Assembly (NCBI RefSeq): GCF_003473485.1
Contig: NC_053042.1
Coordinates: 17,318,501 to 17,382,500 of the forward strand
DNA: 64,000 nucleotides
Origin: Medicago truncatula
Lineage: Eukaryota > Streptophyta > Magnoliopsida > Fabales > Fabaceae
Direction: 5' to 3'
In this document: positions 1 to 61,716 of the stretch, one piece after another
How positions within the stretch are numbered: position 1 is the stretch's first letter
Layout: each line of letters starts with the position of its first letter
Position numbers and translations under genes: made by a program
Notes under the pieces: generated by a model
Database searches by the model: none
What the model saw: only the letters and a program-made list of their open reading frames with translations
Told to the model about the DNA's origin: nothing

Positions 1-142
1 TTATAAAATTTAATTAAGTTGCGTTATAAATTTCTTTAAATTTTGAAACATCTGTCAGATAGCACAAACATTTTAATTGACATAGAAACAACAAATTCAA
101 CATAATCCTAGTATACAATGATGTTATTTAAAAGTGAACTGT

Positions 143-277
143 GAATGTGGAGTTCCAATGGAGCAGATGTGAGCACTAAAATCATCACACCTGTAACGAT
201 GGACTCAGTTAATTTTCCAGACATGTAACGGTATCAACCATAGTCTGTTGAAAAAGATACCTGACTTACGTCTGGAG
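143..277 (-). ncRNA. H/ACA snoRNA candidate, copy A1
   Basis: Read on the minus strand, this segment folds into two hairpins joined by a hinge. Hairpin 1 closes with CCAGAC/GTCTGG, has an internal loop, then an upper stem GGTATC/GATACC. The hinge contains AAATTA, which fits the H-box consensus ANANNA. Hairpin 2 closes with GAGTCCA/TGGAACTC (one bulged A) and has the upper stem AGGTGTGA/TCACATCT. An ACA triplet lies directly after it, three bases before the proposed 3' end. This is the standard plan of an H/ACA pseudouridylation guide. The target was not identified. A second copy (A2) at 354-488 keeps the fold through compensatory changes. Ends are approximate. Confidence 0.75.
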
Positions 278-353
278 ACAATATAAAACAAATTTTAACT
301 TGCACCGCAAAATGTCTGAACTTGTAATGACAAGCTGACATAATTCAGGACAT

Positions 354-488
354 AGATGTGGAGTCCAAATGGAGCAGAAGTGAGCACCAAGAAAACTGTC
401 ACTTCTGTAACGATGGACTCATTAGTTTTCCAGACATGTAACTGTATCAAACCATTGTATGGGGAGGACACATGACTAATGTCTGGAG
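354..488 (-). ncRNA. H/ACA snoRNA candidate, copy A2
   Basis: This is the tandem paralogue of A1, about 210 bp away. Hairpin 1 has CCAGAC/GTCTGG and the upper stem TGTGTC/GATACA. The H box is AAACTA. Hairpin 2 has a perfect lower stem GAGTCCA/TGGACTC and upper stem AGAAGTGA/TCACTTCT, followed by ACA and three bases. Where A1 and A2 differ in stems the partners change together: G-C becomes T-A in hairpin 1 and T-A becomes A-T in hairpin 2. That pattern suggests selection on structure. The copy is cleaner than A1 and is the better functional candidate. The target RNA is unknown. Confidence 0.78.
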
Positions 489-755
489 GCAATAACTATC
501 TAGCAGAGAACAAAAAACATACAAAAATAAAAAATGCAAAAACAAAAACAGTTTTCAAACAATATTATATTTATCAAACTCATCGTTGAATTAGACAGGG
601 ATGATATGATAATTATGAGAAATCATCGGGGTAGGGGTAAGATTGGACGCACTAATATCGCTGGTCATGAGAGGTGCAGAGATATCTTTAAACAACTAAA
701 ATCATCACACCACATTACCAGCAATCATTGTGAAAAAAATATTTTGCAAACAATC
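489..755. other. AT-rich cluster spacer with a decayed H/ACA-like copy
   Basis: The only recognisable content is 661-740, which resembles the B hairpins at 3816-3876 and 4498-4565 (shared motif GAGGTGCAGAG). On the minus strand it still closes with GCTGGT/ACCAGC, but the ACA box has become ATA and the upper stem no longer pairs, so it is probably dead. Confidence 0.4.
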
Positions 756-763
756 GCTTAAAT

Positions 764-1347
764 CATAGTAGTTAATAGCGGATAGCGGAGCGTAGCGGCC
801 GACCCCAAAAATGCTATAGCGGGATAACACAGGGCAATGACCGCTATTTCATAGAGAGCAGAATAGAGTTTTATATAAACAAAACAGAGGATTGTTTGTA
901 CAAACTACAAACAGAAACAGAGAGACCAGAATGGGGTTTGGAATCAATAATAACAAAGAAAACTAGAACAAAAAAGTAATAGGACAACAGAGTATGAGAT
1001 TGTTAAACAAAAAAAAAAATAACAGGAGAGGAAGTTACAGCAGAACAGCAGAGAGAAGATGCAGAAGATGCATTTTGCATTTTGCAGATAAACGCCGTTT
1101 TGCGTAAGAATGAAAGAAGGAAGAGAGAAGCTAAACTTTTTAGGATTTGATGAAAATGTAAAAAATACCCTTGTTTTTTTTTAAACCAAGGACAATTTTG
1201 TATTTTCTCTTAAAATGTAATAGTGGTTCCAAACCGCTACGTAGCATTGCACCGCTATCTCACACCGCAACGCTATGGCTAATTGTGTAGCGCTCCGGCA
1301 ACACACCGCACCGCGCGGCCACTATAGCGCCGCTTTCGACTACAATG
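764..1347. mobile_element. Non-autonomous hAT-type element, 584 bp
   Basis: The element is flanked by a perfect 8-bp direct repeat GCTTAAAT (756-763 and 1348-1355), the target-duplication size of the hAT superfamily. Its ends are short imperfect inverted repeats: CATAGTAG on the left, and CATTGTAG as the reverse complement of the right. Both subterminal regions are rich in GCGG and GCGGC motifs, unlike the AT-rich interior. No transposase is encoded. It sits inside the snoRNA cluster region. Confidence 0.75.
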
Positions 1348-1599
1348 GCTTAAATATCAACTAATATTAAAAATGTAATGTATGAAATTGCGAAAAGAAA
1401 GATTCCACAAGAGATCCAACTCGATATATTTGATAATATTGCTTGATATAGCTGGCCACATAAACCAGTATCAAATTATTGCTCACTTCATACCAGAATT
1501 AGTGGGATGTGCATGTATCATGACACACTGCTAAACCAGCAAAGTATGAATCTTCTGAATGCAACTTGATTCAGGAAGAAAAGAGAACCAGTACTCAAA

Positions 1600-1812
1600 C
1601 CACCCCAACTTCCTTGCATGCATTAGATAATGAAAATATTAACCAAAAAGGGGGTGAAATCAATAAGATCTTCAAATGTTAAGAGATCAACTTTGTAAAG
1701 AAATTCATACCACGCCCACTTCATTGCATGCATTTTTACAAAGCCTAGACAATTTTGAATTGTGTGGATATCAGATACCATAGGAAAACAAACACAGATG
1801 TTAAAACCAAGC
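1600..1812. repeat. Diverged copy of segment 5222-5465
   Basis: Two stretches match the region 5222-5465 in the same order: one around the shared words GCATTAGAT and GAAAATATTA, the other around ATCAGATACCATAGG. They therefore belong to the repeated cassette that makes up the snoRNA cluster. I could not assign a snoRNA type: a hairpin near GGTG/CACC is possible, but no clear H/ACA or C/D boxes were found. Confidence 0.5.
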
Positions 1813-2948
1813 CAAAAAAAGAGAGGAAAAAGCTTGATTCTTGAAATGATGCTTGAACATCAAAATATTGATGCCCAATACAATTTCTTAGGTGCAGGGC
1901 TCATATGAAGTGTAAATTATGAAAGCTCTGTCACAGTGGGAAAAAACCCAGTTCATATGAAGGGGCGGTAAGAGAAAGAGGAAGAGGGGAAAGAAGACTA
2001 AGAACCTGAGATACCAAAGCCAAACCCATTTGGTGAAAATAGTGTGGCGACACCTTCAAGTTCTTAACAACGTTGTTTTCTTTTTCTTTTCATTTCTCTG
2101 TGGACATTGATAAATGGAGAAGATCCTAACTCCGATAGAAGTTGGGTTCTGATTTCCCGATTGAATTGGGTATTTCCCACTAAAGACCTCTCTCTTTTTA
2201 ATCATTGCCCAGCCAACAATGAATCTTACCAGCACAATATATAGAGCACCACCCGTTTGTAGGGTTATTTTTTTTTATAAAAATTGTCCATGTCTCATCT
2301 AAATGTTCGAAATTTTAGACGATGAGATCAAAGAAAGATAAATAAATACAAAGATCGCATGTGATGCTGTAAATATGTATCTATATCTCTTTCATTGTTT
2401 ATTTTCTACAACACACGTTTCAAAGACCAAATAATTTCAATTTTAATTATTACCTTTCATTTCTCCCTTGGGGTTTACAATACCATTGGCATTATTTGAA
2501 AAGAGAATATACGTTAATGAGAGGTTGAGGAGGACACATGTTTGGAGGCAATAGCTACCTACAAGAGAACAAAAAATACAAAAAAGAAAATAAAACAGGC
2601 TATGAATCCAGACAAATTTAATAGTTATCCAACTATGGCTGAAAAATGGCAGCATATCATATATCATATTCAGAACAAGCACTGGTTTTTCAAAATGAAC
2701 TAACATGATATATTCGATAATAATACAGCTTGTTATAGCTGGTTACATGAATCAATATCAAATCAGTATACACTTCATCCCAAACATATTTTTAACAAAG
2801 TGTTTCAAGCAAACAATAAATAAATGGCAGCTAGACAAAATTGTTTGCAGCCACATGAGCAGATAGTCAGGTTCTATCTGTTCCAGAGACAACAATGTCT
2901 TCTTCAATATCTATCACAGTCATTAATATTATCAGCATCAATATAGAT
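1813..2948. other. Cluster-region DNA without an assignable gene
   Basis: No coding exon is visible. Around 2515-2575 there is a fragment matching the 5' end of H/ACA copy A2 (shared words GGAGGACACATG and GGAGGCAATA), so it is a truncated third copy. A short inverted repeat around 2288-2330 (GTCTCATC/GATGAGAT) can form a hairpin. On the minus strand a TATA-like CTATATATTG at 2234-2243 lies near TAACCCTA (2260-2267). This could be a second promoter, but the evidence is weak. Confidence 0.35.
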
Positions 2949-3660
2949 GTTACTCACTTAACATGCACATGCACAACCACAAAGGCTTGACTCTGTTTTC
3001 CGACTCCCACGTTCTGGGTCAAATCGAACTAGATTCAATTGGACAGTTGTGCCAAAGGCGATGGTTTTCAAGACGCACACATATTTGAACCCAGAACCTC
3101 CAACTCATTTTCCCTTGGCTCAAACAACTTGAGTTACCCAACCCCCCACATACATGTAAATATTTCCCAATTCTTTTTTCTTTTATTTGAGTTTCTTTGA
3201 TGTTGTTGGTTCAATATTTTAATTTAATTGATCAAAGTGATTCTTTTAAAAATTTGAACATAACGTAATAATAAGAATTATAGCTTATAAAATGTTATTA
3301 CTTTTTCTATTATGACAACCATCAACTTCTCTTTCTTAAGGGTAACAAAGTAATGAAATGTCCTTAACATTTTGTAAGCTATGAATCTCAAAACTATTAT
3401 GCTCAACTTTAAAAAAGGAGGACTCTTTGATCAATTGAAAAATTTCACCAACAATATCAAATCAAACAAACTCAAATAAAAATACAAAAAAGAAAAAGAA
3501 GGGAGAGAATTACTTGTGTGTCATAATGAAAACCACCGCATTTAGCACCAAAATCGGTGATGGAAAGAATCCGACTGAATCTGGTTCGAGCCGACACAAA
3601 ATGTGGAATCGGAAAACATAGTCAAGCCCTTGTGCTTGTGCATGGTAGGTGAGTAAAGGA
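2949..3660. mobile_element. Large foldback element inside the snoRNA cluster
   Basis: The two halves form an imperfect palindrome of about 710 bp centred near 3305. The outer parts pair around ACTCACTTAACATGCAC (left) and its counterpart at about 3635-3655; the shared core GGCTTGACT lies near 2984 and 3623 in opposite orientation. Inner arms pair around TTATTTGAGTTT and TTGATCAA. There is no coding capacity. No clear target duplication was found, so the superfamily is undetermined. Confidence 0.6.
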
Positions 3661-3815
3661 GTAACACATATATTAAATATAATAGAAATAGAAGGTATAA
3701 TCGAACTACTTTATATTTATCCAAATAATTCCAAAAAGAAGGTATCACATTAGAAACTTAAATCCAACTAATTTGTAAACGAGCTGAACTTCCAAAATCA
3801 AGATAAAGAAGGAAA

Positions 3816-3876
3816 CCATGTAGTAGGTCATGGGAGGTGCGGAGAAACTTTTATTGAAAAAAATCTCCACAAAATA
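3816..3876 (-). ncRNA. Possible H/ACA 3' hairpin, copy B1
   Basis: The minus strand shows a stem GTGGAGA paired with TCTCC(G)CAC, followed by a conserved stretch and an ACA triplet with three bases after it. The lower stem is poor, and no convincing 5' hairpin or H box was found. It is a probable decayed relative of B2. Confidence 0.35.
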
Positions 3877-4073
3877 AATAAAGGAAACCCCATCTTCTAT
3901 AACAGAACCGTTGGATAAACATTATCATATCTACTTGAACTTCAAGCCAACAGACTATGTCTAAAATTAAACCATCTATCAAAAAACATATCGTATATGA
4001 CCCATACCATCAAATCCAACATTCAAATCAAAACATCAACCCGAAAAAGATAATAAAAAATTAAAATCTAGAA

Positions 4074-4168
4074 AATGGGATCAGATGGTCGATGTTTCAC
4101 CAAGTATGAATGAATTACACAGTAAGACTGGATGTCACATTTAAATATTTTATCCTCATATCCCACTG
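4074..4168 (-). ncRNA. C/D box snoRNA candidate, copy C3
   Basis: On the minus strand the segment starts with a terminal stem (AGTGGGAT pairing with ATCCCATT). Box C follows in the form ATGAGGA, a one-base departure from RTGATGA, and box D (CTGA) lies just inside the 3' stem. The bases before box D (CATCGACCAT) are shared with copy C2 and nearly shared with C1, as expected for a guide element. The weaker box C makes this the least certain of the three copies. Confidence 0.6.
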
Positions 4169-4275
4169 TATCGATGCTGCAAATTGAAATATAATAAAAA
4201 CAAAAGCAAATCAACAAAAATTAATTTGATTTTCAGTATAAAAAAATTAACGCTAAGATATATGGAAGATATAAT

Positions 4276-4368
4276 AAGAGGATCAGATAAGAAGTCAGTC
4301 ACCAGGTTACACTATTATTATAGTGCAAATTAAGACTGGGGCGACAATTACTATCATCACATCCTCTT
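4276..4368 (-). ncRNA. C/D box snoRNA candidate, copy F2
   Basis: On the minus strand an 8-bp terminal stem AAGAGGAT/ATCCTCTT brings together box C (GTGATGA) and box D (CTGA). The internal region contains a small hairpin, CACTAT/ATAGTG, between the presumed D' and C' boxes (C'-like TGGTGACT). Its length of 93 nt equals that of its paralogue at 5085-5177. The presumed D' guide includes CGCCCCAGTCTTA. The target was not identified. Confidence 0.72.
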
Positions 4369-4497
4369 TTTCACCAATTTATAATAAAGTTATATCAAAT
4401 GAGTGTTCCATAATTCAATATTAATTCCTAAAAGAAGGTATCAAACTACAAACACAATTGTTAAAATGAGCTAAACTTCCAAAATCAAGATAAAAAA

Positions 4498-4565
4498 GGA
4501 TGTAGCAGGTCATGGGAGGTGCAGAGAAAACATTATTAAAAAAATCTCCACACAAAATTACCAGC
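4498..4565 (-). ncRNA. Possible H/ACA 3' hairpin, copy B2
   Basis: The minus strand forms a lower stem GCTGGT/ACCTGC (one mismatch), an internal loop and an upper stem GTGTGGAGA/TCTCTGCAC. The stem is followed by ACA and three bases. The matching 5' hairpin and H box are not convincing, so it may be incomplete. Related copies are at 3816-3876 and 661-740. Confidence 0.45.
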
Positions 4566-4885
4566 AATCATTACGAAAAATATATCATTCATCATTCCTT
4601 AGATATTAATTAATACTAAAACATAGTTGAATTGAGGAAAGTAATATATCAATCATCATTCCTTTTTTCTTTACTTCCTTTAAAAAATTTAAATAAAGGA
4701 AAACACCTGCCTTATTCTAAAAGAGAAACGTTGATAAACATCATCACAAATGCATGCATTTCAAGCCAACAGACTATGTTTAAAATTAAATCATCATTCA
4801 TAAAACATATGCTATATGACACATACCATCAAATCCAACATCCAAATAAAATGAGATGATAAATGATAATAAAAAAATTAAATTT

Positions 4886-4988
4886 GGTAAATGGGATCAG
4901 ATGGTCGATGTTTCACCAAGTATGAATAAAATTCACAGTAAGACTGGATGTCACATTTGAATATTTTATCCTCATATCCCATTGTACC
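4886..4988 (-). ncRNA. C/D box snoRNA candidate, copy C2
   Basis: The terminal stem is long (GGTA...AATGGGAT pairing with ATCCCATT...TACC). Box C is ATGAGGA, one base off consensus, and box D is CTGA. The guide stretch before box D reads CATCGACCAT, as in C3. Internal sequence, including CATCCAGTCTTACTGTG, is conserved among the three copies. It lies between H/ACA-like B2 and C/D F1 in the duplicated cassette. Confidence 0.68.
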
Positions 4989-5084
4989 GATGCTGCAAAG
5001 AGAAAATTGAAATAAAATAAAAACAAAAATTTATTTGATTTTAGGTATAACAAAATTAACACCAAGATATATGGAAGATATAAT

Positions 5085-5177
5085 AAGAGGATCAGATAAG
5101 ATGTCAGTCACCATGTTACACTATTATTATAGTGCCAATTAAGACTGGGGCGACAATTACTATCATCACATCCTCTT
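5085..5177 (-). ncRNA. C/D box snoRNA candidate, copy F1
   Basis: Same architecture as F2: terminal stem AAGAGGAT/ATCCTCTT, box C GTGATGA, internal CACTAT/ATAGTG hairpin, C'-like TGGTGACT and box D CTGA. It is also 93 nt long. The two copies differ at only a few positions and both keep all boxes, so each could be functional. Confidence 0.74.
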
Positions 5178-5221
5178 CTTCACCAATTTATAATAAAGCT
5201 ATATCAAAGGATTATAAACCA

Positions 5222-5465
5222 CACCAACTTCATTCATGCATTAGATTATGAAAATATTAGCCCAAAAGGGGTGAAACTGACAAGATCAACAATGTTAAGA
5301 GAACAGCTTTGTAAAGATATTCATTCCACCACAACTCATTTCATGCATTTATTATATTAAAACAGAGAACAAATAATAAAGTTGTGAGTCTGAATTGGAA
5401 TAAAGAAAATGAAATTAACCTAACATCAGATACCATAGGCAAATATACCCAGATGATAAAACCAA
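5222..5465. repeat. Second copy of the segment at 1600-1812
   Basis: This lies between C/D candidates F1 and E. Its position suggests another RNA of the cluster, but I cannot see definite boxes. On the minus strand GGTGGAA can pair with TTTCACC across about 45 bases. Confidence 0.4.
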
Positions 5466-5532
5466 AACACAATTTAAGGAGAAAAATGGCTTAATTAAAG
5501 AAGATTGGAAATATGAATGGTTTCATAAACTT

Positions 5533-5613
5533 GCAAGAGATCAGATGGTAGTGCATGTTTGTTTCATCATCAATAACAGAACATTTGGGATAATTATCAT
5601 CATATCTCTTTGC
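5533..5613 (-). ncRNA. C/D box snoRNA candidate E
   Basis: On the minus strand the ends pair (GCAAAGAGAT with ATCTCTTGC, one extra A). Box C is a perfect ATGATGA, an internal C' box TGATGATGA is present, and box D is CTGA. The presumed D' box is CTGT, preceded by a guide-like stretch TTATCCCAAATGTT. The guide before box D includes ATGCACTACCAT. It is about 81 nt long. Decayed copies lacking box D occur at about 3906-3965 and 4727-4785. Confidence 0.75.
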
Positions 5614-5681
5614 ATTTACATAACAAAATATGGTTTAGAATGAAAATTACATTAATAATTTTGCAAAATATACTCACTAAA

Positions 5682-5787
5682 GCAATTTGGGATCAGTTGG
5701 TCGATGGTTGAATCACCAAGTATGAATAAATTCACAGTAAGAGTGGATGTCAAATCCAAAGATTTCATCATCATATCCCAATGTTGC
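5682..5787 (-). ncRNA. C/D box snoRNA candidate, copy C1
   Basis: This is the promoter-proximal member of the cluster. It has an extended terminal stem (GCAA...TTGGGAT with ATCCCAA...TTGC), box C ATGATGA at full consensus, a C'-like GGTGATT and box D CTGA. Its guide before box D reads CATCGACCAA, one base different from C2 and C3. Box integrity makes it the best of the three C copies. Confidence 0.76.
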
Positions 5788-5907
5788 AAACTGAAAATTC
5801 AATATAATGAAAACAAAAAGAAACCAGCAAAAATTAACGCTAAGAATTAAGAAAGATAAGACAAAATAAAATCGGAATTCGAACAAGTAAAGCAACGAGG
5901 AGTGGAA

Positions 5908-6042
5908 TTAGGGTTTGCGATTTGGGAATATTTATAAGAAGCAAGTGGGTTCAGATTAGGGTTTTGAGATTAACGGCGGCGCACCCGTTCCAGTTAAAAT
6001 CAAACGGGTGGGTACTGCTTCAGTAGCTGAGGGTCCGGCCCA
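5908..6042 (-). promoter_or_regulatory. Minus-strand promoter of the snoRNA cluster
   Basis: Read on the minus strand, a site II element TGGGCC (6037-6042) is followed by a telo box AAACCCTAA (5956-5964), a TATA box TTATAAA (5931-5937) and a second telo box (5908-5916). Site II plus telo box is the known signature of plant snoRNA and ribosomal-protein gene promoters. It points leftward into the snoRNA candidates, with a start expected near 5900. No protein gene with a matching start was found downstream on that strand. Confidence 0.65.
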
Positions 6043-6045
6043 ACA

Positions 6046-7758
6046 TACTAAGATTGAACATGATTTTGTTGGTTTTGCTATTTTGACCTCCCTAATTACT
6101 CAAAAATCTTGAAAAACAATGTTTTGTAGTTATATATATAGAAGCATTTTTAAACACAAAAAATAAAGTATGGGAGATGTGAACTGAAAGGTTGAGCAAT
6201 TATACGGGTCCAAAAGAGAAAACTTTTTATTTTGTTACAAAGAGAAAAAAGAGAAGAAAAAAAAAAATCTTACTCAAGAGATTAGTTGCGTGCAACGGAT
6301 ATCCAATCCACAATAAAAAAATATAGTTCTAAATGCATCAGGCAAAATCAAGGAGGAGAGAATTGGGAGAAGTCAAAAAATTAAAGCACAACCAATGAGT
6401 CAAAACAACAACTTAGCAAGGATATTTGAGCAAGTGTTATCTTCTAGAAGAGTGTGACGAAGGTCTAACGACTCAATCCCTAGTCGAGTACTCGTGAATA
6501 ATTTCTAACTTATCGGAAATTTCAATTAGACCCCAAAACCTAATTTTTCGTAATTACTTGATACACTAACATTCGCACTAAGAACCATTATATCGGAAAT
6601 ATCAAATGCGGGAAGGGGTAGATGAGACCGCGGGATGGACCACATACGCAATTTAACCAAAAATTTTAAAATATATTCAAAGTGAAATCATGAGCACTGA
6701 ATCGTTGATGGTGGTTGAGAATGCACAAATAAAATGACATACAATGAGTCAAAATTTCAAAGCAAAATTGCAATGAGGAATTCAAAAACGAGATTCTTGT
6801 TAAGCATTATGGTACTTTTGTAAATTGCAAACAAAATCTCTAATTCTTTTCACTTTAAGGATTAAAGTTAAGAATTAGTGCAATTAAATCTAGAAATTTA
6901 AGTGTTTAAGGCACAATATATTGATTGAAAGAAAAAGGTTCATTATATAACATCATATAAAGTCCGCAAAACATAAATACAAAGACAAAAAATATAAAAC
7001 ACACTGGTATAAAAATAATTAAAAAACGTTTGGGGGACCATGACCTCTGTTGGTCCCCTTTCTAGCTCCGTACCTCCATAAACTGATAGGTTGGTGACGC
7101 CTCATTATATGATGTTTTTAACTATGTTTTGCAACTTGTTTCTATGCATTTGAAGACAAAATAGAGATTGTATAATGAGTTGTTAATGATTTTGAGAATG
7201 TTTTAATTTGAAACGTTGTACTTATATTCCTTTTTTAACCAGACAACTTCATATATGTTTGATACTATATGTTTTGAGTATGTTTAAACAATGTAAAACA
7301 AAAATAAGTATACCTCAATATATTTTATATCCAAAATTAATTTTAAAATAACCGTGCAATTCACCATTAATAAATTATAATCAAAGGAGTTATATAGAAC
7401 GAGTATGATCAATTGATAAACCCCATTTGTCAAATGTAAGAACAAGCATATATTATTTCTCTTGTGTAAAACTTTAAGATCCTCACAGAAATCATGTAGG
7501 CACGTTTCCCCTCATAATTGACATTTCTCTAGATTTTAACCATTTTGACAACCATATACTCATATAGCATGTGACTATGTGAGTGTGGTGCATGTCAAGG
7601 TTTGTGGCTAGCTATCAAACCCATGTGACTTTAAATTTCTTAGTCATTTTCATATAATATAATTAAACATATAAAATTAAGTAGTTGGTTCCATTATTTC
7701 CTATATCTACCTATAACTACCCATGTTTACATATTCCCTTTTGCCAAAGGAAAAAAAA
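6046..7758. other. Intergenic, no gene seen
   Basis: AT-rich DNA with no exon I can support. Around 7030-7075 a stretch with GGTCCCC and CTAGCTCCGTACC resembles the right end of the hAT-type element at 17452-18111; no matching left end was found. Confidence 0.3.
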
Positions 7759-23495: not shown

Positions 23496-24611
23496 TTAGT
23501 CCTCTTCATAACCAGATAGGTTCCATTCGAACATTTGTAAAAATTTATGAAAATCTATTGGAAGTTTACAATCTTTGATTTGATCATAACACCTTTTCCT
23601 CAAACTTTCACTCAAATCCAAACTAAAACATAATCCTAGGTCAAGCGATTCAAGAAGAGGACATCCATTTAGAATGGCAATTAGAATCCCATCAGATGAG
23701 AGCTTATTTCGAGAAATTTTAAGATGACGTAGTCGAGGCATTGTTTTAGCGACAGCCAAAAACTCGTCATCAGATATTTCTTCCTTATCGAAAGTGAGAT
23801 GACATTCCAGTGATTTCAGAAGAGGACAACAACCACCTACAGCTTCAATAGAATTCTGGGACAGTTTGATGGGATATAAAACTTCAAGCTCCTCTATCAT
23901 CGAAAGTTTCTTCATGCCTCCAATAAATCCTTTTTCTGAAAGGTTATCAGCAGCATCACAAGCTACAAGCCGGATGCAACGCAGGTGACTTGCACTGAGA
24001 AATGTAAATTAAAACATTATTATAACAAAAATAGTAGTCATGATTTTAGATTATTATAACTGCAACTTTGGTGTCATCAACGGCATACAATCATGTATCA
24101 TAGTAAAAAGGTTCGCAGCGTAATTTCAACAACAAACACAATTAAAAATATGTTCAACAATAGAAATAAGTTTATAAAGAAAAATAAAATAGAATCAAAT
24201 ACATGATTAAGCAAAAAGACATTAATACTTGAAAGAGTCTAAGGTTAATCACCAATCAGCTATGTATTTAAAGAGATCATCGGTTAAAAAAAACTCAATA
24301 TCAATCTCTTGAAGTTGACCACAACTTCGCTCAACTGCATAGCGGCAAATCATCTCCAAATCCATATGTAACCATTCCGGATAGTGATAGTGTGAAGACT
24401 TGATCATAGAAATAGTGCGCCACATGAGAGGATCCTTGCAAATATTCCACCATAAAGGGCACACTTGACATACACTTGTGACAATTTCAATAGTATCAAG
24501 CCTCTGGAGAATGTTTATTGCCAAATCTTTTGGTAGTTCAAGCCAATTTGGCTCTGCTGCTGTGCTTTCCCTTTCTACTCCCGTTGATGGAATTGAAGAA
24601 GATGCCGTCAT
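23496..24611 (-). CDS. F-box/LRR protein, SKIP19/FBL23-like (copy 1)
   Basis: Two exons (24253-24611 and 23496-23994, minus strand) join in frame to 285 residues. An F-box lies near residues 23-65 (NWLELPKDLAINILQRLDT, then CPLWWNICKDPLMWRTI). Leucine-rich repeats follow, for example CPLLKSLECHLT, MPRLRHLKIS and CPLLESLDLGLC. In known members the F-box binds SKP1 in an SCF ubiquitin ligase and the repeats hold the substrate. The intron is 258 bp. A paralogue lies 10 kb away on the same strand (34068-35131), with a shared promoter. The substrate is unknown. Confidence 0.9.
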
Positions 24612-24660
24612 GCAAGTGGAACGAGATGGTATTATTTGATCACTCGTTGATGGTATAACC

Positions 24661-24671
24661 TTTTATATAAA
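24661..24671 (-). promoter_or_regulatory. TATA box of F-box copy 1
   Basis: Minus-strand CTTTATATAAAA lies about 50 bp upstream of the start codon. The same sequence context occurs upstream of copy 2. Confidence 0.6.
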
Positions 24672-27599: not shown

Positions 27600-27955
27600 G
27601 GCTTAAATGATCCCTTAACTTGATTTCAAGTGTCGGTTTGGTCCCATAAATAATAAAAGGTCCATTTAGGTCCCTTAACTTTATTTAAATTATCAGTTTG
27701 GTTCTGTTAATTTAATTCAAAAAAGCGTTAAGTTTAGGGACTAAACTAATACTAATTAAATAAAATAAGGGACAAAACTAATACTATTAAAATAAGTTAA
27801 GAGACCAAAATTTAACGTTCTTTTGAATTAAATTGACATAAAGGATCAAACTGATGCTTTAAATAAAGTTAAGGGACCTAAACATAATTTTTATTACTTA
27901 TGGGACCAAACCGATACTTGAAATCAAGTCAAAGGATCAAAAGAGCATTTAAGCT
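27600..27955. mobile_element. MULE-type foldback MITE, 356 bp, 9-bp TSD
   Basis: Flanked by a perfect 9-bp duplication TATAATTTA (27591-27599 and 27956-27964). Nearly the whole element is an imperfect palindrome: left end GGCTTAAATGATCCC, and right end reverse complement AGCTTAAATGCTC. Both arms contain CGGTTTGGTCCCATAA-like sequence. It is non-coding. Confidence 0.85.
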
Positions 27956-34067: not shown

Positions 34068-35131
34068 TTACTCCAAAACATTAGTAAGCAATCTTAAAGA
34101 GCTGATCTCATTAGTCATTTTCATAAGCTGATAATCTACTGGAAGTTTAAAATCTTTGATTTGATCATAGCACCTTTTCCTCAATCTTTCACTCCAATCC
34201 AACCTAAAACATAATCCCAGGTCAAGAGATTCAAGAAGAGAACATTCATTAAGAATGGCAAGAACCCCATCAGATGAGAGATTATTTCCAGCAATTTTAA
34301 GATGACGTAATCGAGGCATTGATTTAGCGATAGCGAACAGCTCATCATCGGATTTTCCAGTTTTCATATCGGAAGTGAGCATACATGTCAGTGATTTTAG
34401 AAGAGGACAAGATCCACCTACAACTTCAATGGAATTCCGGGACAGTTTGAAGGGATATGAAATTTCGAGCTCCTCTATCATCGAAAGTTTTTTTATGCCT
34501 TCAATAAATCCTTTTTCTGAAAGGCTATCAGCAGCATCAAAAGTTACAACCCGGATGCGACGTAGGTGACTTGCACTGTGAAATGTAAATTAAAACATTA
34601 TTATAACAAAAATATTTGTCATGATTTTAGATTATTACAGTAAAAAGGTTCAAGAAAAATATGCTCAGCAATAGAAATAAGTTTGTCAAGAAAAGAACAA
34701 TAGAATCAAATGCATGATTAAGCAAAAAGACATTAATAACTGAAAGCGTTTAAAGTAATCAAAGTTAATCACCAATCAGATATGTATTTAAAGAGATCAT
34801 CAGTTAAAGAGAAGTCAATATCAATGCCTTCTAGTTGACCACAACTTCGCTCAACTGAATAGCGACAAATCGTCGCCAAATCCATGCGTAACCATTGCCA
34901 ATAGTCATAGTGTGAACACAGGATCATAGAAATAGTGTGCCACATGTGAGGATCCTTGCAAATATTCCACCATAAAGGACACACTTGACATACACTTGTG
35001 ACTATTTCAATAGTATCAAGCCTCTGGAGAATATTTATTGTCAAATCTCTGGGTAGTTCAAGCCAATTTGGCTCAGTTGCTGTGCTTTCCCTTTCTACTT
35101 CCAATGGTGGTATTGAAGAAGATGCCATCAT
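34068..35131 (-). CDS. F-box/LRR protein, SKIP19/FBL23-like (copy 2)
   Basis: Two exons (34773-35131 and 34068-34575, minus strand) join in frame to 288 residues. The F-box (NWLELPRDLTINILQRLDT, CPLWWNICKDPHMWHTI) and leucine-rich repeats (CPLLKSLTCML, MPRLRHLKIAGN, CSLLESLDLGLC) match copy 1 closely. The intron is 197 bp with the same splice positions. A deletion of about 34 bp near the end shifts the frame relative to copy 1, so the last about 20 residues (from YQLMKMTN) are unrelated and the protein reads past the ancestral stop. Presumed role: substrate receptor of an SCF ligase. Confidence 0.88.
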
Positions 35132-35176
35132 GCATGCAACAAGATGGTATTATTTCATCTCCCGTATCCAATAACC

Positions 35177-58573: not shown

Positions 58574-59115
58574 CTACCAGGGAAGTTATTCATTGTTGCT
58601 GCAAAAACTAACTAGCTTGTGCCAAAACACAAAGAACACTAATATTCAATTGCCCTTATTTACTTTTTCGATTGTCTCAAATCTCAGGTACGTCTATTGT
58701 TTTTTCTCCATTGGTCATAACTAATTTCATATGTTGATCCATTTCTTTTACTTGTAATATTTTTCACTTGCTTGTCCTCATTACTTATATAAGAAACAAA
58801 TTATTTCACATGTTTGTCCTCATTCACTTTTATGATTACAAAAAACTAACCAACAGAGTTGAGAATTGATTTTAAAATGTGATACATTAAATATTATATA
58901 TATGTTTCTTTTGTGAGTTATATATACTCTTTTACGTTAATTTAGATTGTTTATATTCATGTATAATTGTTTCTTTTGTGAGTTATATATACTCTTTTAC
59001 GATGATAATTTAGATTGTTTATACTCATTTATAATTAAATAAGGTATACATTTGGCTACCGCAAATAAGATATACATTTTTTGTTTTTAGGAATTTTTAA
59101 GACTTTTGATACAAG

Positions 59116-61716
59116 ATGAATGAAGATTGGAAGCCAAAAGTAGATATGGTTTTCTGTAGCTTTGAAGATGCTTGGGAGTTCTGGAACACTTACGGTGGTA
59201 AGGTTGGATTCGGAGTGAGGAAAGATTATACACACAGAAAAAAGGATGGTTCAGTTTCTTCTTGTAGGTTTGTTTGCTGCAAAGAAGGCATGCGAAAGCC
59301 AGACAAGCGAGATTATAAAACAAAGAATCCAAGACTAGAGACCAGAACAAATTGTGAAACAAGGTTAGGACTTAAGAATGTGGATGGAAAATTGATGGTG
59401 CATGATTTTGTGGAGGACCACAACCACGAGTTACTTTTGCCAGAAACAACTCATATGTTGTCGTCTCAACGAAAGGTTTCTGAAATTCATTGTCAACAAA
59501 TTGAACTAGCTGATAGTGTCGGTGTACAACAAAAGAAATCGTTTGATTTATTGAGTAAAGAAGTAGGAGGCAGAACTAACTTGGGTTTTATACGTCTTGA
59601 TCAAAAGAATTATCTTCGGAAAAAAAGAGAAAGAAGTTTGGTACAAGGGGAGGCCGGCTATTTATTGCAATACTTTCAAAGAAAGACGGTAGGAAATCCA
59701 ACTTTCTACCATGCTTATCAGCTAGATATTGAAGATCAAATCACCAATGTGTTTTGGGCAGATGCTAGGATGCTGGTTGATTACAGTTATTTTGGTGATG
59801 TTGTTTCTCTTGATTCAACATATTGCACAAATAGTTCGCACAGACCACTAGCAATCATCTCGGGATTTAACCACCATCGAGGAGCCGTAATTTTTGGAGC
59901 TGCATTATTATATGACGAAACTGCTGAGTCATACGAGTGGCTCTTTGAGACATTTCTAGAAGCACATAAGCAGAAAATGCCTCAAACAGTTTTTACTGAT
60001 CAAGCCAAATCAATGGCAAAAGCATTAGCCGAGGTTATGCCTGAAGCTTACCATGGTTTATGTACGTGGCACTTGATGCAAAATGGAATTAAACACTTAG
60101 GAAATTTAATGAAGGGGGAATCTTATTTTCTTAGTGACTTTAAGAAATGCATGTATGGTTATGAAGATGTAGAACAATTTGAAGATGGTTGGACATCCCT
60201 CCTTATAAAGTATGGTGTTCAGAAAAATGATTGGTTGCAAATAATGTACAATATAAAGGAGAAATGGGCATCTTGTTACATGAAGAAGACTTTGACATTA
60301 GGGATGCGAAGCACTCAACTTAGTGAAAGTGTGAATGCAGATATTAAAAATTTTATGAGTAAGAACTTGGATTTAATTAAATTTTTTGAGCGTTTTGAAG
60401 ATGTTGTAGAAGAAAAGCGGTATAAAGAATTGAAGTGTGAATTTGAAGCACGCCAAAAAATTCCAAGACTGAAGAACTCATATTCTGATATTTTGCAACA
60501 AGTGTCCAAGCTTTATACTCCTACTATTTTCGACTTATTCCAACGTGAGTATGAGTTGTTTGAAGCATGCTTTGTGAAAAGCATGGACATACAAACATCA
60601 TTATCTACTTATGTTATTGCCAAGAAAAGGAATATGGGAGAATGGCAAGTGACCTTCGATTTGGAAAAGAATACAATTTGTTGCTCTTGTCGTAAATTTG
60701 AAAGCTTTGGCATACTTTGTTGTCATTGCTTAAAAGTCTTCATTCATATGGACGTTACGTCAGTGCCTGAGCCTTATATTTTAAAGAGGTGGACAAAGAT
60801 AGCAAGAAGTAGAGCTTCACAAACTATTGGTGTTAGTCATGTGGTAGAAGACTTGGATTTATCTCCAGCACAATGTTATAAGGAAATTTGTCCCCGCTTT
60901 ATTAGGATAGTCACAGAAGGATGTAGAAGTCCTAGAGCTGTTGAGTTTCTTAAGGAAGTTGCTGATGAATTGGACGAGCAAATGCTAAAGTTTCAAAATA
61001 TGCAAATAAGTAGTGAACAAGTGAATGGAACCTCTAACAATATTAAAGAGATATCAATTACTAATGATTGTGCAACACAAGTAAAGGGGTTTAAGAACAA
61101 CGAAGGTCCAAAGGGTTCAAAACGTTGGAAAGGTTGGGTAGAAACAAAACTGGCCAAGAGAAAGAAACGTGCGAAGTCCATTGCTTCACAAATTCAAGAA
61201 CCTTTGGTATTATTAATATATTTAGTTTTATTTTTTGTTTTTGTTGACTACATAAGCTTACCTTTATATTTCTTTTTTTCGTGTAGAAGAACAAAGGTAA
61301 GCAGGGTTCCAAAAATATAAAGAGGCGGGATGAAGTGTCAAACATAAGTGCTCCACAAAGTCAAAAGCAATATGTTGTGTCCAACACTAGTGATTTACAA
61401 TGTCAACAACCATTTGCATCGTCAATTACAAGTGCACCTATATGGCTTAATAATGCATACAATCAACCATCTATGGTTAGCTAATAACAATTTGAATTTG
61501 TGAATGACCTTAACTATGTTTAGTGTTTAAATTATTTTGGGTTTTATGTAGGGAGACGATGGAACTTCTAGTCAATTCGGTGTTGCTAGTTTTACTAGCT
61601 TATTGATGGTAAATTTCAAATTATACGATTCACTTTCAAATCTATATATATAATATTAACTTGCATTTTTTAAATTATAGGAGCAACTTGATGATGGTAC
61701 CAAAGACTTGAATTGA
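59116..61716 (+). CDS. FAR1-related MULE transposase (FRS-like)
   Basis: Four exons (59116-61206, 61287-61475, 61552-61608, 61681-61716) join in frame to 790 residues. Residues about 12-98 form the FAR1 DNA-binding zinc finger (CCKEG, TNCETR, DHNHEL). The MULE transposase domain follows with a full DDE set: D233 (VVSLDSTYC), D295 (TVFTDQAKS) and E404 (TQLSESVNA), plus the CTWH pair at 316-319. A SWIM zinc finger lies at 523-537 (CSC ... CCH). The C-terminus is basic (KLAKRKKRAKS). A 5'-UTR intron is likely (donor after 58687, acceptor before 59091). FRS genes can be domesticated regulators, but this one lies between intact TIRs, so I read it as a transposase. Expected role: binding the TIRs and cutting the element out. 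Confidence 0.93.

Follow-up and report, generated by a model that had tools for sequence, protein, structure and literature searches.

The closest described counterparts of the locus considered here are two Arabidopsis clusters of small nucleolar RNA (snoRNA) genes disrupted in hid2, which carry SnoR4a/b, SnoR5a/b, U31a/b, U33a/b and U51a/b, combine both snoRNA classes and are duplicated; methylation of 25S G2620, 25S G3292 and 25S A816 is reduced in hid2, and U33 has also been assigned 18S U1273 (PMC8053127; this and the other published accounts cited below are drawn on in part). Plant genomic regions containing both snoRNA classes are known (PMC7464842), the pairing of a telo box with a site II element has been described in plants, both at snoRNA clusters and at genes for ribosomal proteins (PMC4660826, PMC3022908), and the mobility of plant snoRNAs between intronic and independent gene organisation has been described in general (PMC3511168). 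Here we analyse a stretch of 64,000 nucleotides from Medicago truncatula (contig NC_053042.1, here C1; C1:17318501-17382500), hereafter the window, near the start of which a preliminary description made from the letters alone had noticed a minus-strand cluster of box C/D and box H/ACA snoRNA genes. That description presented the mixture of classes and the internal duplication as special, a view that the regions and clusters cited above do not sustain.

The cluster contains eight snoRNA candidates, all on the minus strand: six of the box C/D class (U31 twice, U33 once and snoR4 three times) and two of the box H/ACA class, which agrees with the 'at least eight' first proposed. We conclude that it is very probably a free-standing, amplified paralogue of the plant U31-snoR4-U33-snoR5-U51 cassette of the Arabidopsis HID2 type, most likely expressed as a polycistronic RNA polymerase II precursor. 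Clusters of this kind are ordinary and already known in plants, and the one in the window is an amplified, host-free and partly decayed relative of a known cluster. Three of the five families (U31, snoR4 and U33) are present in complete form; the locus is a derived paralogue of the HID2-type cluster and not a complete member. Along the minus strand the promoter is followed by snoR4 copy 1, U33, a snoR5 fragment, and then two successive units that each hold a U31, a snoR4 and a U33 relic. In window coordinates, the features are:

5909-6042, minus strand: TeloSII promoter, with site II TGGGCC at 6037-6042, telo boxes AAACCCTA at 5957-5964 and 5909-5916, and TATA TATAAATA at 5929-5936.
5687-5781, minus strand: snoR4 copy 1, diverged; C box ATGATGA at 5768-5774, D box CTGA at 5693-5696; RF01171 at 25.4 bits over 5689-5779.
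5535-5610, minus strand: U33 (SNORD33); RF00133 at 58.3 bits, above the gathering threshold.
5423-5448, minus strand: relic of snoR5 (the first ~26 nt of H/ACA snoR5/F1/F2), 96% identical over 26 nt to the snoR5 of contig C8.
5085-5177, minus strand: U31 copy 1, a HID2 homologue and predicted guide for 25S G2620; RF01285 (U31b) at 76.7 bits over 5089-5173.
4890-4983, minus strand: snoR4 copy 2; C box ATGAGGA; RF01171 at 49.5 bits over 4893-4980 (cut-off 60).
4732-4761, minus strand: U33 relic 2, recognised from repeat family D12 and alignment.
4276-4368, minus strand: U31 copy 2; RF01285 (U31b) at 74.5 bits over 4280-4364.
4074-4167, minus strand: snoR4 copy 3; C box ATGAGGA; RF01171 at 47.7 bits over 4077-4164 (cut-off 60).
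3891-3942, minus strand: U33 relic 3, 85% identical over 48 nt to the U33 of C8; repeat family D12.
3875-5211, minus strand: unit of U31, snoR4 and U33 (relic), duplicated in tandem with a period of ~815 bp; repeats D1-D3 are spaced 809-819 bp apart.

Rfam was searched at the gathering threshold (60 bits for snoR4) and then at a relaxed one. At the gathering threshold we recovered U31b twice and SNORD33/U33; the earlier statement that ordinary annotation would call the region empty is thus only half right, as plain Rfam detects these three genes. The internal duplication reported before is clear, the two tandem units being 85% identical over 535 bp (3875-4402 versus 4690-5211), and the genome search matched snoR4 copy 1 with copy 2 at 84% identity. 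The C box of snoR4 copies 2 and 3 reads AUGAGGA, where the RF01171 consensus is AUGgGGA.

Searching the genome (429.9 Mb in 42 contigs), we found relatives of the cluster inside ribosomal protein genes. On C8, matches to all five families (U31, snoR4, U33, snoR5 and a U51-like gene) lie within one RPL32 intron (L005, 4601-5299), and on C2 three of them (U33, snoR5 and U51-like) lie within an intron of an L16p/L10e gene (L032, 2928-3401; C2:45137000-45144000). A truncated RPL32 copy on C4 (L006, C4:11883000-11892900) has an open exon 1, after which a U31 and the 3' portion of a U33 are fused into one; the 4.7 kb downstream contain no exon 2. The window version has three repeat units and is without recognisable RPL32 exons, the best match to these in the window (E=0.042, at 61094) lying outside the cluster. 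Three of the four snoR4 copies found in the genome are in the window, the four U31 copies found in the genome do not differ over a 33-nt block that includes the antisense element, and the D guide of the window U33 is identical to that of the C8 and C2 copies, its D' side being changed. A literature search on RPL32 and snoRNAs, judged by title, gave no plant RPL32 snoRNA cluster among the matches listed.

The promoter elements are ~130-260 nt upstream of snoR4 copy 1, the first snoRNA of the cluster, and have the arrangement of a TeloSII gene, with telo box and site II near a TATA and upstream of clustered snoRNAs. Nowhere else in the window does a 250-bp span contain two telo boxes together with a site II, and 0 of 100 order-1 simulations of the window have such a span, while a single telo box accompanied by a site II was obtained in 35 of 100; the telo-box/TATA/site II promoter postulated in the preliminary description is upheld. 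The C8 RPL32 gene is also preceded by two telo boxes and a site II. We rejected a similarity between the two promoters, as what they have in common amounts to telo boxes, the core of a site II, simple repeats and short words attributable to chance.

The box H/ACA part of the cluster lies at its downstream end:

354-488, minus strand: box H/ACA snoRNA A2; H box AAACTA at 423-428, ACATCT at 354-359; 5' pocket TAGTCA/GTTAC; rank 1 of 21.
143-277, minus strand: box H/ACA snoRNA A1; H box AAATTA at 210-215, ACATTC at 143-148; pocket AAGTCA/GTTAC; rank 2 of 21.
2538-2597, minus strand: truncated relic of H/ACA snoRNA A, the start of the first hairpin only; 82% identical over 66 nt to 479-544.

Both complete genes have the form hairpin-H(ANANNA)-hairpin-ACANNN. 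The ranks refer to the 21 candidates that an H/ACA scan returned from both strands of the 64 kb; every hairpin of the two genes is at or below -19.6 kcal/mol, and the candidates ranked below them are weaker in at least one hairpin. Paralogues occur on C7 (94% identity for A2) and C6 (79% to A2); C7 has both genes, C6 only A1 in full. An alignment of five sequences has 34 consensus pairs, two of them with compensatory changes and four broken in one or two sequences, one of which (columns 86-134) may be an alignment offset by a single base. We also observed a U2 small nuclear RNA match (118.9 bits, L013 1114-1310) ~3.6 kb from the C6 gene copy. The 5' pocket, 14 nt before the H box, can form 5+5 bp with GUAAC-U-A-UGACU in 25S helix 69 (28S string from PMC12180492), and we regard helix 69 as a lead only to a candidate target of the pair. 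The 3' hairpin forms at most 4 bp within the 84-nt string tested. The helix 69 uridine facing the 5' pocket is presumably a conserved pseudouridine. Two pseudouridines have been mapped in helix 69 (PMC8351944).

From the boxes, stems, paralogy, motif context and complementarity observed, we infer a route of transcription, processing, guide-site pairing and modification with a single precursor for all eight genes. RNA polymerase II would start from the TeloSII promoter at 5909-6042 and produce a long precursor, from which the individual snoRNAs would be excised and trimmed. U31 would then direct 2'-O-methylation of 25S G2620. The intact D guide of U33 would serve 18S U1273, and the changed D' side perhaps was the guide for 25S G3292; this division between D and D' is our own reading of the published assignments. 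The orphan snoR4 copies 2 and 3 may assist the processing of precursor ribosomal RNA (rRNA) through a 12-nt element that can pair with the 3' end of 5.8S, and the two downstream H/ACA genes would direct pseudouridylation in helix 69. The snoR4 element of copies 2 and 3 forms 12 bp, including one wobble, with the published plant 5.8S 3' end (strings from PMC5735172 and PMC10882817); for copy 2 the pairing was equalled by 1 of 1000 shuffles, and the controls U31 and U33 reached 8 bp. This complementarity would fit the predicted, unconfirmed 5.8S Gm155, for which a processing role has been suggested (PMC8351944). A genome search for 5.8S returned three matches, of at most 69.7 bits and all divergent, and the plant 5.8S pattern was found in 0 stretches of the viral contigs.

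Several observations weigh against this interpretation. All three snoR4 copies fall below the Rfam cut-off, as do the snoR5 matches on C8 (42.1 bits) and C2 (38.6 bits; cut-off 60). The target tests used short published rRNA strings from other species, not Medicago rRNA; snoR4 copy 1 forms only 9 bp with 5.8S, equalled by 41 of 1000 shuffles, and a pocket site as good as that of the H/ACA pair occurred in 7 of 200 random 7-kb sequences. In Arabidopsis, SnoR4 is reported to lack a target for rRNA methylation (PMC8053127), and the prediction of 5.8S Gm155 went unconfirmed (PMC8351944). Finally, a 9.9-kb block on C7 that matches much of window 1-3684 contains no C/D family match. Because of this last result, the H/ACA pair may be a separate neighbour of the HID2-type cluster and not part of it. 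Several other features lie between the two parts (the two insertions have no assigned strand):

2940-3674: inverted-repeat element resembling a miniature inverted-repeat transposable element (MITE), with terminal repeats of ~105 nt (2940-3043 versus 3570-3674, 77.6%).
1896-2210, minus strand: snoR125-like long C/D RNA copy; RF02409 at 27.5 bits (gathering threshold 100), with a TATA TATATATT at 2236-2243, ~30 nt upstream.
1770-1810, minus strand: second snoR5-like 5' fragment, 88% identical to 5425-5465 and 80% over 45 nt to the C8 snoR5.
764-1347: hAT-like element of 584 bp, flanked by a perfect 8-bp duplication of its target, ATTTAAGC (1348-1355 and 756-763); the site is empty on C7.

The invasion by transposons described before is borne out by the hAT-like element, its duplicated target and the empty C7 site; for the element at 2940-3674 a target duplication was looked for and none was found. 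It is a substantial possibility, from which we nonetheless lean away, that the locus consists of two units, the TeloSII promoter driving the C/D part only (~5780-3800) and the H/ACA genes (143-488) being transcribed independently or not at all. The H/ACA genes lie 5.4 kb downstream; two elements resembling transposons intervene, as does a snoR125-like gene that has its own TATA, and the C7 block holds the pair at 83-86% identity in its C/D-free setting. There, no TeloSII pair is close by: the nearest telo/site II pair on C7 is ~4 kb upstream of the H/ACA genes and adjoins what we read as the 3' end of another gene. Against two units, however, the genes occupy one strand throughout, the window offers no pair of telo box and site II nearer to the H/ACA genes, and long plant snoRNA precursors exist.

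A different view of the C/D part is that most of its copies are redundant with the intronic cassettes of C8 and C2 and are drifting into pseudogenes, a general decay that we consider rather unlikely. Two of the three U33 copies in the window are relics, the third has the changed D' side, snoR4 copy 1 has diverged, and U51 was not detected in the window, the U51-like RF00134 matches in the genome being confined to C8 and C2. The snoR5 genes of C2 and C8 are 92.5% identical over 161 nt, and the window keeps only 5' pieces of 26 nt and 45 nt; RF00482 (snoR5) has no match in the window at E up to 10, and we rejected the presence of a complete, two-hairpin snoR5 gene. Against such decay, the U31 antisense block is unchanged in every copy found, U33 retains an intact D guide and snoR4 copies 2 and 3 an intact 5.8S-complementary element, the promoter motifs are present, and the C/D scan described below finds closing stems at all six C/D genes.

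The paralogue of the HID2-type cassette that we favour could also have a more particular history, which we think improbable: an intronic cassette of a ribosomal protein gene would have left its host, gained or kept a TeloSII promoter and been multiplied into a locus serving the orphan snoR4, with snoR4 guiding processing, and not methylation, at the boundary of 5.8S and ITS2 (internal transcribed spacer 2) and U33 left with its 18S role only. Whatever its history, one genome presents the same families in introns of two ribosomal protein genes (RPL32 and L16p/L10e), in a truncated host copy (on C4) and in a host-free repeated cluster, a neat illustration of the passage of plant snoRNAs between introns and genes of their own. 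The orphan snoR4 persists in several copies, and in two of those in the window the 5.8S-complementary element is intact, so that the function of snoR4 can be put to the test.

The C/D scan (C box RTGATGA, D box CTGA, closing stem of at least 5 bp; 64 kb, both strands) gave, with an exact C box, six matches that represent four loci, all on the minus strand within 1-6100. When one C-box mismatch was allowed, there were 13 minus-strand matches, nine within 1-6100 and four outside, and two plus-strand matches, both outside; this relaxation adds snoR4 copies 2 and 3 and a chance-like match at 2788-2665. In all, six loci have a 5' C box, a 3' D box and a closing stem, the C box being exact in four. 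Applied to four other loci (~40 kb), the scan gave two unsupported exact-box matches (L006 1029-1099 and L013 4476-4582) and failed to detect either U31 or snoR4 on C8, so it is neither fully specific nor fully sensitive; given these unsupported and missed calls, the scan alone proves nothing, and the family matches carry the case. Chance C/D patterns such as these do occur, but the idea that the boxes as a whole arose by chance in A+T-rich intergenic DNA is already refuted by the curated family models and the intronic paralogues, and the two H/ACA genes head the scan of the 64 kb. Rfam and the two scans together bear out a minus-strand cluster of both classes.

Other candidates did not hold up. 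The C repeats are single hairpins with eight consensus pairs, no compensatory change and an energy of only -3.8 kcal/mol, and the D repeats are likewise single hairpins, as judged by folding and alignment only; neither was retained as H/ACA snoRNA. Repeat copy C2 (a C repeat, distinct from contig C2) with its upstream hairpin (3978-3816) ranks 8 of 21, inseparable from background, and the snoR5-like 5' ends failed as complete snoRNAs. Matches to SpF14_sRNA, MIR5743 and ceN100, the last overlapping H/ACA A1, are below the cut-off and were taken as chance.

The snoR125-like copy is contained in a stretch of ~550 bp (~1887-2437) that is absent from the C7 paralogue. The RNA has 37 match rows genome-wide, including the window, and many of the match edges coincide with the RNA ends. 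Within ~76 kb of C3 (33.936-34.011 Mb) lie 24 of the 37 rows, which by our reckoning represent about 18 separate copies, some rows being pieces of one copy, interspersed with matches to the H/ACA RNA snoR143. The D-box guide for U2 A31 is perfect over 11 nt in five of the eight copies checked, and the copies of the window, L027 and L028 have one mismatch each to U2. Among seven other copies (L022-L028), RF02409 matches six at 29.4-35.6 bits (cut-off 100), L028 being unlisted; L033, which has snoR125-like copies by DNA match, has no RF02409 match at E up to 0.05. We regard the C3 stretch as a large mixed snoR125/snoR143 array of a probable U2-modification guide, possibly more unusual than the cluster in the window.

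Elsewhere in the window, Rfam matches to MIR2655 and MIR5267 were found, which fit a legume origin. Those to MIR2655 (27643-27905) fall in the same place on both strands (237.3 and 196 bits), as a near-perfect palindrome would give, and the site is perhaps a MITE-derived element. An open frame of 736 amino acids at 59110-61320 on the plus strand has FAR1, MULE and SWIM domains, as in FAR1/FHY3-like proteins or MULE transposases. On the minus strand, 23496-24662 and 34068-35149 are two gene pieces ~10.5 kb apart that are similar as judged by reading; in the two of their four frames that were scanned, one has an F-box and the other sub-threshold LRR matches only.

Comparison with known systems places the locus as follows. 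It resembles the plant TeloSII polycistronic snoRNA genes in having telo boxes, a site II and a TATA before clustered snoRNAs, the resemblance being one of sequence motifs (PMC4660826, PMC3022908). The cassette in the C2 L16p/L10e intron has the same U33 D guide as the window but is intronic and carries snoR5 (below the cut-off) and a U51-like gene, and neither U31 nor snoR4 was found in it. The cassette in the C8 RPL32 intron has U31, snoR4 and U33 with the main guides of the window, and its host gene is preceded by a site II and a pair of telo boxes; it differs in being intronic and single-copy, in its snoR5 (below the cut-off) and U51-like RF00134, and in the order U31-snoR4-U33-snoR5-U51. 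From the Arabidopsis HID2 clusters, as far as the account of them used here extends (PMC8053127), the window differs by its three repeat units, undetected U51, snoR5 fragments and transposon-like insertions, and by a different H/ACA pair and a downstream snoR125-like gene; with them it has in common U31, U33 and snoR4, the presence of both snoRNA classes and duplication.

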